Below are positions 1-55,246 of a stretch of DNA of 56,454 nucleotides, one piece after another. This DNA is from a bacterium (GTDB lineage: Bacteria > Chloroflexota > Dormibacteria > Aeolococcales > Bog-877), in the NCBI GenBank assembly GCA_021802045.1, contig JAKABB010000006.1:1-56454 (forward strand). Direction: 5' to 3'. The notes under the pieces were generated by a model. The model was not told where the DNA came from and made no database searches. It was given only the letters and a program-made list of their open reading frames with translations. The position numbers and the translations under genes were made by a program. The number at the start of each line of letters is the position of its first letter. The stretch's first letter is position 1.

Positions 1-123
1 GCTCTTGACGCCCCGCTCGGCCCGCCGGGTCTCCCCGACGAACTGGGGCCTGCTACCGGGCGCTCCAGTACCTACCCGGGCGGGACTCTCACCCGCTGGC
101 CGATTCCAGTCTCCAGGACGCAC
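1..123 (-). mobile_element. group II intron, 5' part of domain I (copy 1, truncated by window edge)
   Basis: On the minus strand the sequence begins GTGCGTCCTGG at 123, a group II intron 5' consensus (GTGYG). It then follows the 5' end of the intron at 55208 base for base over long stretches, with shared blocks such as GAGCGCCCGGTAGCAGG and CGAGCGGGGCGTCAAGAGC. The two copies are clearly related but diverged (roughly 80% by eye). The rest of this copy, including domain V and the downstream exon, lies outside the window. Confidence 0.75.
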
Positions 124-138
124 CATGCCACGATCATA
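124..138 (-). promoter_or_regulatory. -10-like box and isolated ATG upstream of intron copy 1
   Basis: Minus strand: TATGAT (138-133), six bases, then ATG (126-124), directly followed by the intron 5' end at 123. This is the spacing of a leaderless start. No convincing -35 element is seen. The gene that the ATG belonged to would lie beyond the intron, outside the window. Confidence 0.35.
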
Positions 139-53407: not shown

Positions 53408-54493
53408 CTAGGTGGCGTCGCGGACGAGCTCGAGCCGGCGCGCGGGCGCGGCGGGCCGGGCGGTCGACTGGCGCAGGCGTAGTTCCACGGGCAGGACCCG
53501 GCGAGCGGGGCCGGCGGTGCGGCCCTCGACCAGGTCGATGGCCAGCTCGGCGGCCTCCCGGCCCAGCCGTCGCACCGGCTGGCGCACCGTGGTCAGCGCC
53601 GGGGTGACCAGCGCCGCCACGAAGATGTCGTCGAAGCCGACGATGGAGAGCTCGGCGGGCACGTTCCGCCCCAGCTCCCGGGCGGCCTGCATGGCGCCGA
53701 GGGCGATCAGGTCGTTGACGCAGAAGAGCGCGGTGATCGCCGCCTCCCGTATCAGCAGGTAGCGGGCCGCGTCCCGGCCCGCCTCCAGGGTGTAGGTGTC
53801 CGCGTGGCGGAGACGGCGAGCGACGACGGGCGCGCCGGCGCCACGGGCGGCGTGGCGGAAGCCCAGCACCCGGGCGGCCGCCGTGGGCAGGCCCCGGGGA
53901 CCACCGATGATCCCGATGGCGCGATGGCCCAGTTCGAGCAGGTGTCGCGCCGCCAGCAGGCCCCCCAGGCGGTTGTCGACGGTGAGGAGCGACGCCGTCG
54001 GCGGCAGCGTTGGCAGGGGCTCGTCGAGCACCACCAGCGGGACCCCGGCCGCGGCCAACCCGCTCAGGCGTGCGTTCTCCCTGGGAGTGCCGGGGAGATA
54101 GATGAGGGCGTCCACCCGCTTGTCCCGGAACACGTCGACGTAGCGGTCCTCCAGGGCCGGGGTGAGCTCCGAGCTGCCCACGACCAGGGTGTAGCCGCGG
54201 GTCAGGGCCGTGCCCTCGACCGCCCGCACCAGCTCGCTGAAGAAGGGGTTGCCGATGTCCGGCACCACCAGGCCCAGGGTCCGGGTGCGCCCGGTCACCA
54301 TCGAGGCCGCCACATGGTTGGGCCGGTAGCCGAGGCGCAGGGACGCGGCCTCGATCCGCTGCAGGGTGGGCTTGCTCACCGGGCGCTTGCCGGAGAGGGC
54401 GTGGCTCACCGTGGCGATGGAGACGCCAGCCTCGCGAGCCACGTCCCGGATTGTCGGCGGGTGAGGTAGGCCGCTGGCGCGGTGCTCAGGCAT
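53408..54493 (-). CDS. LacI-family transcriptional regulator
   Basis: A 361-residue repressor. The HTH TIRDVAREAGVSIATVSHAL and hinge ending RLGYRPNHVAASMV are canonical, followed by a periplasmic-binding-like domain (LGLVVPDIGNPFFSELVRAV; DALIYLPGTPR; VGFDDIFVAALVTPALTTV). ATG 54493 is the first start in the continuous frame. The group II intron ends at or just before it, and an earlier ATG (55211), preceded by a promoter and a LacI-type operator, lies on the other side of the intron. It probably represses its own operon in response to the permease substrate or a metabolite. Confidence 0.92.
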   Translation of the reverse strand: MPEHRASGLPHPPTIRDVAREAGVSIATVSHALSGKRPVSKPTLQRIEAASLRLGYRPNHVAASMVTGRTRTLGLVVPDIGNPFFSELVRAVEGTALTRGYTLVVGSSELTPALEDRYVDVFRDKRVDALIYLPGTPRENARLSGLAAAGVPLVVLDEPLPTLPPTASLLTVDNRLGGLLAARHLLELGHRAIGIIGGPRGLPTAAARVLGFRHAARGAGAPVVARRLRHADTYTLEAGRDAARYLLIREAAITALFCVNDLIALGAMQAARELGRNVPAELSIVGFDDIFVAALVTPALTTVRQPVRRLGREAAELAIDLVEGRTAGPARRVLPVELRLRQSTARPAAPARRLELVRDAT

Positions 54494-55208
54494 GAGTCCG
54501 TCTCCAGCGGCCCCCTGCAGAACCGTGCATGCGATTTTCCCGCACACGGCTCGCCCCCGGGCAGTCGGTCAGCCTCATTCCGCCCTGCCACCGGCGTTGG
54601 ACGCGGACCCCAGCGTGCTGCGGTCGCTCTGGCCAGTTCCCCAAAGGGAGCGGGTGAGTGGCCCCGGAGGGCAAGCCCGCAGTCAGACCGATCCCGAACG
54701 CACACCCGGCTGGAGGCCCTTCGCTCCGGCGGGGTTGTGTTGTCCTCGCCCTCATCGCTACGGTATGGCCTCCTCCGACTTCCGCTCGGCGCTCCGCCAC
54801 TTCACCTCGCGGCTTATAGGCTTCGCTGCTACCGGGCACTGCAAGTTGGCAGCTCACAGCCATCCATGCCGGTGCCGAGACGGATCTCTCCTGTTCCTGG
54901 CCAGGCCGTGAGCGCGTGCCACTCCCCCTACCCCGGAGGGACCCGAGAGACGTAACCCCTGGAACCGGGTCTGCCGGACATGGCCTTCGCCGTGACATGA
55001 GCGGCTCGGCTCCCTCGTTGTAGCTCTGACGAGGCTGCAGGTTTCGCGTAATGCTGCGGCCCGCGCTCTTGCTCCCTCCGAAGAGGCTCTTGACGCCCCG
55101 CTCGGCCCGGCGGTTCTCACCACCAAGCTGGGACCTGCTACCGGGCGCTCCAGTTCCTACCCGGACGGGACTTCCACCCGCTGGTCTGGTCAAGCTTCCA
55201 GGACGCAC
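54494..55208 (-). mobile_element. ORF-less group II intron (copy 2) inserted behind an ATG start codon
   Basis: The minus strand starts GTGCGTCCTGG at 55208 and carries conserved domain I-IV blocks (GGTGGAAGTCCCG; GCGAAGCCTATAAGCCGCGAGG; GTGGCGGAGCGCCGAGCGGAAG). A clear domain V lies at 54552-54520. About 715 nt with no reverse-transcriptase/maturase frame. Domain VI and the exact 3' splice site could not be resolved. CATGTC occurs at 54999-54994 and 54982-54977 and could pair with a CATG-containing 5' exon (inference). Excision and mobility would need a maturase supplied from elsewhere. Confidence 0.85.
54520..54552 (-). ncRNA. group II intron domain V
   Basis: The 33-nt hairpin begins GAGCCGTGTGCG, has a GGAAAA-containing loop, and closes with CGCATGCACGGTTC. 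GAGCCGTG pairs with CACGGTTC (one G-U), and TGCG with CGCA, separated by the two-base bulge. The AGC catalytic triad is kept. Diagnostic of group II introns. Confidence 0.9.
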
Positions 55209-55246
55209 CATGGCGGGAGCCTAGTGCAAAACGTTTTGTGTGTCAA
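55209..55246 (-). promoter_or_regulatory. leaderless promoter and LacI-type operator of the lacI operon, cut off by the intron
   Basis: Minus strand: TTGACA (55246-55241), 17-bp spacer containing the perfect palindrome CAAAACGTTTTG (55238-55227), TAGGCT (55223-55218), six bases, ATG (55211-55209), then the intron 5' end. AAACGTTT is the core of many LacI-family operators and lies between -35 and -10, so the regulator would block its own promoter. Confidence 0.75.

Follow-up and report, generated by a model that had tools for sequence, protein, structure and literature searches.

Three target specificities were recognized for bacterial group II introns in a 2015 review, namely homing sites, terminators and attC (PMC4424553). 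According to a second review, IIC introns use a short IBS1/IBS3 together with a hairpin (PMC3898094), and both reviews cite Robart et al. (2007) for the insertion of group IIC introns after intrinsic terminators. A 2022 survey of prokaryotic introns measured their distance to terminators and does not mention promoters (PMC8919778). No report of an intron family that targets start codons was found in the open-licence literature searched, although papers beyond it could exist; the initial annotation of the present locus had held a start-codon-targeted intron placed as a 5′ control element not to be a standard description. Here we describe a widespread and apparently undescribed family of this kind, starting from a copy in a 56,454-nt stretch of DNA (the window, which denotes this whole stretch). 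Very probably, a mobile, class C-related lineage inserts precisely after the ATG or GTG (RTG) that opens leaderless transcripts, and the copy in the window is a protein-less member of it. We favour this explanation because of the RTG flanks, the upstream TANNNT motif, the unoccupied sites, the covariation of EBS1, the single clade of the reverse transcriptases and the locking of their reading frame to the RTG. The features of the window are as follows.

55241–55246, minus strand: −35-like sequence TTGACA
55227–55238, minus strand: palindrome CAAAACGTTTTG within the promoter spacer, resembling a LacI operator (putative operator)
55218–55223, minus strand: −10-like sequence TAGGCT, with the ATG 6 nt downstream (leaderless spacing)
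55209–55211, minus strand: ATG that is at once the 5′ exon end, IBS1 and the lacI start codon
54461–55208, minus strand: group II intron of 748 nt without an IEP
54996–54999, minus strand: EBS1 CAUG, whose partner is C-AUG in the 5′ exon (covariation across copies)
54519–54552, minus strand: domain V
54461–54517, minus strand: domain VI, with a candidate branch point at the unpaired A 54467, 7 nt from the 3′ end
54486–54505, minus strand: GGAG (54505–54502), ATG (54493–54491) and TGA (54488–54486)
53408–54460, minus strand: exon 2, lacI from codon 2 (PPTIRDVAREAGVS...)
1–126, minus strand: second copy, truncated by the contig end, with a TATGAT −10 at 138–133, ATG at 126–124 and intron GTGCGTCCTGG from 123 down

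The arrangement described in the initial annotation is present throughout: TTGACA and TAGGCT separated by a 17-nt spacer that holds the palindrome, six bases, the ATG at 55211–55209 and the intron start GTGCG at 55208. The palindrome is the sole match in the window at two or fewer mismatches (expected 0.06). A strict sigma-70 scan called no promoter at the lacI site because TAGGCT is a weak −10 (3 of 6 consensus positions), and a terminator scan near the insertion site found none. The proposal of a group II intron directly after the ATG was borne out by covariance search, which gave full-length matches on the minus strand to RF02003 (86 bits, model positions 1–138 of 138, domains I–IV) and RF00029 (51.9 bits, 1–77 of 77, domains V–VI). 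As had been stated, no reverse transcriptase or other protein is encoded within it and domain V is intact, with a fold z of −4.3 for domains V and VI; free folding of the whole intron gave no signal (z 0.18). The ends agree with GUGYG and AY (GTGCG at 55208 and CTACCTCAC ending at 54461), and EBS1 pairs with IBS1 as CAUG with CAUG. The 3′ end had been placed at 54493/54494, giving an intron of ~715 nt. We revise it to 54461 because domain VI forms a single long hairpin (GGCCGCUGG...CCAGCGGCC) with the unpaired A at 54467, because 54461 is also the last base covered by RF00029, and because the 3′ junction of a 93% identical sister-species copy falls at the homologous base, as confirmed by an unoccupied orthologous site; the ATG at 54493 thus lies inside domain VI. 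Copies in two other genomes are also 748 nt long and 91–93% identical over the full length. The predicted splice joins ATG to CCG CCG ACA ATC, giving MPPTIRDVAREAGVS, and continues with CGG GAC GTG, a normal LacI N-terminus; the protein encoded after exon 1 aligns with LacI-family models beginning at its residue 1 or 2. No unoccupied close ortholog of this lacI was found in the order. On these grounds, the feature appears to be a protein-less group II intron that looks competent for splicing.

The ATG at 54493 overlaps the TGA closing the frame opened at 55211 and is in frame with lacI, to which it would add an 11-codon extension; in-frame restart ATGs in domain VI also occur in L014, L015 and L030. 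Such a restart may bypass splicing. An alternative is a decayed intron that is no longer spliced, with LacI translated solely from the ATG at 54493, and the conservation of GGAG...ATG in frame with exon 2 and the persistence of the restart ATG in a related copy without the EBS1 region (L022) are in keeping with it. However, in the window copy domain V, domain VI, EBS1 and the two ends are all intact, and its identity to the copies in two other genomes extends over its full length; we consider decay unlikely. The related copy itself (L022/L016, G010:C81), shortened to 610 nt, no longer has the EBS1 region or the CAC end but retains the ATGGCTGA restart in the gene frame; it may be a former intron that now serves as an unspliced leader.

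The same restart bears on the suggestion of the initial annotation that the intron is a dedicated 5′ control element for the permease/aminotransferase operon, in which splicing would set the supply of LacI and hence the operon. The length of 748 nt is not divisible by three, so that reading unspliced RNA from the first ATG cannot yield LacI, and the promoter does contain a LacI-like palindrome. Nevertheless, the GGAG...ATG of domain VI in frame with lacI weakens the argument, no ligand- or condition-dependence is known, and the intron is one copy of a mobile family found before unrelated genes. We therefore regard such a switch as very unlikely; a dedicated control role for the intron in the permease operon is not supported.

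Further copies were found by a search of the order, and a search of GTDB genomes with the reverse transcriptase on contig C18 of the source genome yielded 80 loci; phage and plasmid collections contained few close relatives. Contig C18 carries the 3′ half of an IEP-bearing intron followed by a cation-efflux gene. The end of this contig (G000:C18, L011) and window positions 1–126 may be the two halves of one intron split by assembly, which when joined would have a leaderless ATG at one end and, at the opposite end, the reverse transcriptase and cation-efflux gene. The copy on contig C154 is not located after a start codon, and the 5′ end of that on C51 lies outside the assembly. An RTG stands directly 5′ of the intron in 54 of the 55 copies with a readable 5′ end, as counted by a script accepting ATG, GTG or GCG alone, and the exception (L069) has GCG. 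Independently, we examined 5′ lists without a flank filter and an RF02003-based sample of 400 Actinomycetota genomes; non-RTG lineages were also found in this sample, so the method does not force the RTG result. The copies occur in relatives of the source genome, Mycobacterium, Nannocystis, Rubrivivax, Acidobacteria and Planctomycetes, and the related copies within one genome occupy different genes. These host genes are unrelated (polA, ilvE, metF, mobA, an epimerase, transporters), and exon 2 corresponds to codon 2 onward of genes for a DNA polymerase I exonuclease domain, MTHFR, a MobA-like protein, a zinc ribbon protein, an ABC ATPase, an amino acid permease and an epimerase. At two sites the RTG is not the start codon of the main gene: in L062 it begins a frame of 11 codons that overlaps the start of a phosphogluconate dehydratase-like gene, and in L039 a lipoprotein-like gene starts ~110 nt downstream (both genes named by eye). 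Therefore, the target is best described as an RTG at the transcript start, which is usually a start codon. Start-codon targeting, proposed from the lacI copy, is thus strongly supported and general to the family, the opposite of the flanks unrelated to start codons that would have spoken against it; as to whether the flank is always ATG, GTG is also used and L069 departs from both.

The intron ends vary among the relatives. In IEP-type copies an RTG is present at both ends, leaving these ends ambiguous by up to 3 nt. We rejected target-site duplication as the origin of the 3′ RTG, since in L041 and L095 the 5′ side carries GTG but the 3′ side ATG, and since protein-less copies end in CAC. The culturable Nannocystis poenicansa carries nine or more copies, and a GTG-targeting subfamily in it (L048–L051, L053, L055) ends in GTG, such that its last three intron bases follow EBS1, whereas ATG closes the other IEP-type copies. 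Group II introns normally begin with G; some relatives start with TTGCG or TCGCG and end in AATG, and the 5′ end is TTGCG, TCGCG, GTGTG or GAGTG, not GTGCG, in L022, L033, L037, L040, L042, L056, L065, L068, L070, L071, L073, L095, L108 and L170. One locus (L020/L031, G047:C72) is a twintron, in which domain V of the start-codon intron is interrupted by a second, reverse transcriptase-encoding group II intron and domain VI of the host intron resumes ~2 kb later.

Upstream of the RTG, a TANNNT motif is found at 6–8 nt in 49 of 55 sites (6 nt in 30, 7 nt in 16 and 8 nt in 3) and is missing at this distance from the other 6, compared with 97 of 19926 background RTGs at the same loci (0.49%). The distance observed is that of leaderless promoters. 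A general −35 requirement was discarded, as TTG occurs at 16–19 nt in 3 sites only. When the two flanks were joined and searched in other Nannocystis and Mycobacterium genomes, intron-free orthologous sites were recovered in both genera with codon 2 directly after the RTG and the −10 conserved, for example TATACTGTCCGGGTG|CTGCGCCGC and, at ilvE in Mycobacterium, TAGAATCAGCCCCATG|ACCAGCGGC. The protein-less subgroup, which includes the window copy, is represented by the unoccupied epimerase site of a sister species, TAGCATCGATGGATG|CGAATCTTC. The window copy itself is inserted exactly after the RTG of a putative leaderless promoter, as proposed for the lineage.

These sites raise the question of whether translation starts as such are recognized or rather the promoter DNA, that is, the −10 and the first transcribed bases, with start codons being struck because leaderless transcripts open with RTG. 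The target may then become accessible, through melting in the open complex, to an RNP without an endonuclease, consistent with the IEPs, in which Pfam detects no endonuclease domain. The floating −10 spacing, set against the fixed RTG, and the L062 and L039 sites, whose RTG lies at the apparent transcript start and whose main start codon is elsewhere, also favour recognition of promoter DNA, but a bound polymerase could block access and the IEP might equally contact the −10 directly. We hold the two sides to be evenly balanced. Whether through the open complex, direct −10 contact or otherwise, recognition of a promoter-linked property would restrict the insertion site.

The RTG itself appears to be read by the intron RNA. 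The EBS1 candidate is a domain I loop, GCCG-CUCAUGUCA-CGGC, that places CAU opposite AUG, and across 43 copies EBS1 covaries with the start codon. CAT accompanies ATG in 30 copies and GTG in 4; the latter are no exceptions, since G-U wobble accommodates them. CAC occurs in 8 GTG-inserted copies from two separate lineages and never opposite ATG, and L022 is without the EBS1 region. The next EBS1 position and −4 form a pair in 40 of the 43 copies (shuffled mean 25, none of 2000 as high). We remark that the loop resembles the anticodon loop of initiator tRNA, and claim no descent from it. Could the distribution instead reflect selection, with wide insertion and survival solely right after start codons? 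Insertions there should be mild if the intron splices. However, intergenic insertions would be equally harmless and none is seen among 55 copies, sister lineages without RTG sites persist, and EBS1 covaries with the start codon; we find this scarcely credible.

A total of 20 copies, belonging to 14 divergent lineages, have the captured RTG in frame with the reverse transcriptase (522–699 nt apart, divisible by three), and this frame runs without a stop across ribozyme domains I–III, while the other two frames hold 3 to 12 stops; in sister introns the enzyme frame is open over the same stretch in 0 of 23. This frame is not maintained in the main actinobacterial subclade or in a few others, and L077 has a one-base deletion. 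Protein-level selection on the ribozyme-crossing frame was rejected, with no codon periodicity and no codon-type amino acid conservation; it seems that only the open frame, not the amino acids, is kept. In the protein-less subgroup, including the window copy, the captured frame stays open over 241 codons up to a TGA that overlaps the GGAG-preceded domain VI ATG, which is in frame with the host gene.

In a 64-protein tree, built without a non-class-C outgroup, a branch supported at 100/95 sets apart all RTG-type reverse transcriptases, together with L069 and two whose 5′ end is unknown. Their hosts include Actinomycetota, Myxococcota, Pseudomonadota, Planctomycetota, Acidobacteriota, Spirochaetota and others. 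Across this branch lie introns lacking RTG, among them Bacillota copies after T-rich stretches that look terminator-like by eye. The nearest solved IEPs to those of the relatives are the GsI-IIC RT (6ar1) and 7uim, which we take to be class C, and Pfam finds only RVT_1 and GIIM plus a weak RdRP_1 overlap. The relatives' IEPs are thus of class C type, the window copy itself having none. We nevertheless call these introns class C-related and not class C, because 54 of 55 follow an RTG rather than the terminator hairpin or attC that defines the class C target.

Taken together, we suggest that the intron RNA reads the start codon through EBS1 (5′-CAU or CAC) and that the host promoter would yield a transcript consisting of RTG, intron and exon 2, with transcription presumably starting at the RTG. 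Splicing in the cell would then rejoin the RTG to codon 2 and restore a leaderless mRNA. In many relatives, translation of unspliced RNA could begin at the captured start codon and run across the ribozyme to the reverse transcriptase; in protein-less copies, this frame would lead to the domain VI ATG in the frame of the host gene and possibly past the need for splicing. If this is true, it explains how an intron is tolerated in genes such as polA, it makes one start codon common to two proteins via splicing, and the role of promoter melting in retrotransposition becomes testable. The starts of genes adjoining such introns are likely misannotated at present. The family looks like a fourth bacterial group II target specificity, with capture of the start codon. 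More tentatively, and with somewhat more doubt than confidence, we propose that the intron reads the start codon with an anticodon-like CAU/CAC loop at the transcription bubble of a leaderless promoter, takes over promoter and start codon to express its own reverse transcriptase, and gives the start codon back to the host gene by splicing with an exon 1 of three nucleotides.

Several known introns share parts of this behaviour. The Azotobacter groEL intron, inserted in the stop codon, likewise sits at a codon boundary feature of its host gene, but it occupies a single homing site in one gene and does not belong to a start-codon family. In fungal mitochondrial group II introns, the IEP is in frame with the upstream exon and translated as a continuation of exon 1, whereas in the RTG family the exon part is just the start codon of a leaderless bacterial gene. 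Group IIC introns resemble the family in the nearest solved IEPs, the short IBS1, the lack of an endonuclease domain and the multicopy state; they insert after hairpins, in contrast to insertion after start codons by a −10 and to the separate IEP clade found here. The IIC-attC introns of integrons (PMC4424553) also share a short IBS1 and a class C-type protein, but their target is the folded attC, whereas that of the RTG family is a promoter and start codon at which no hairpin was found.
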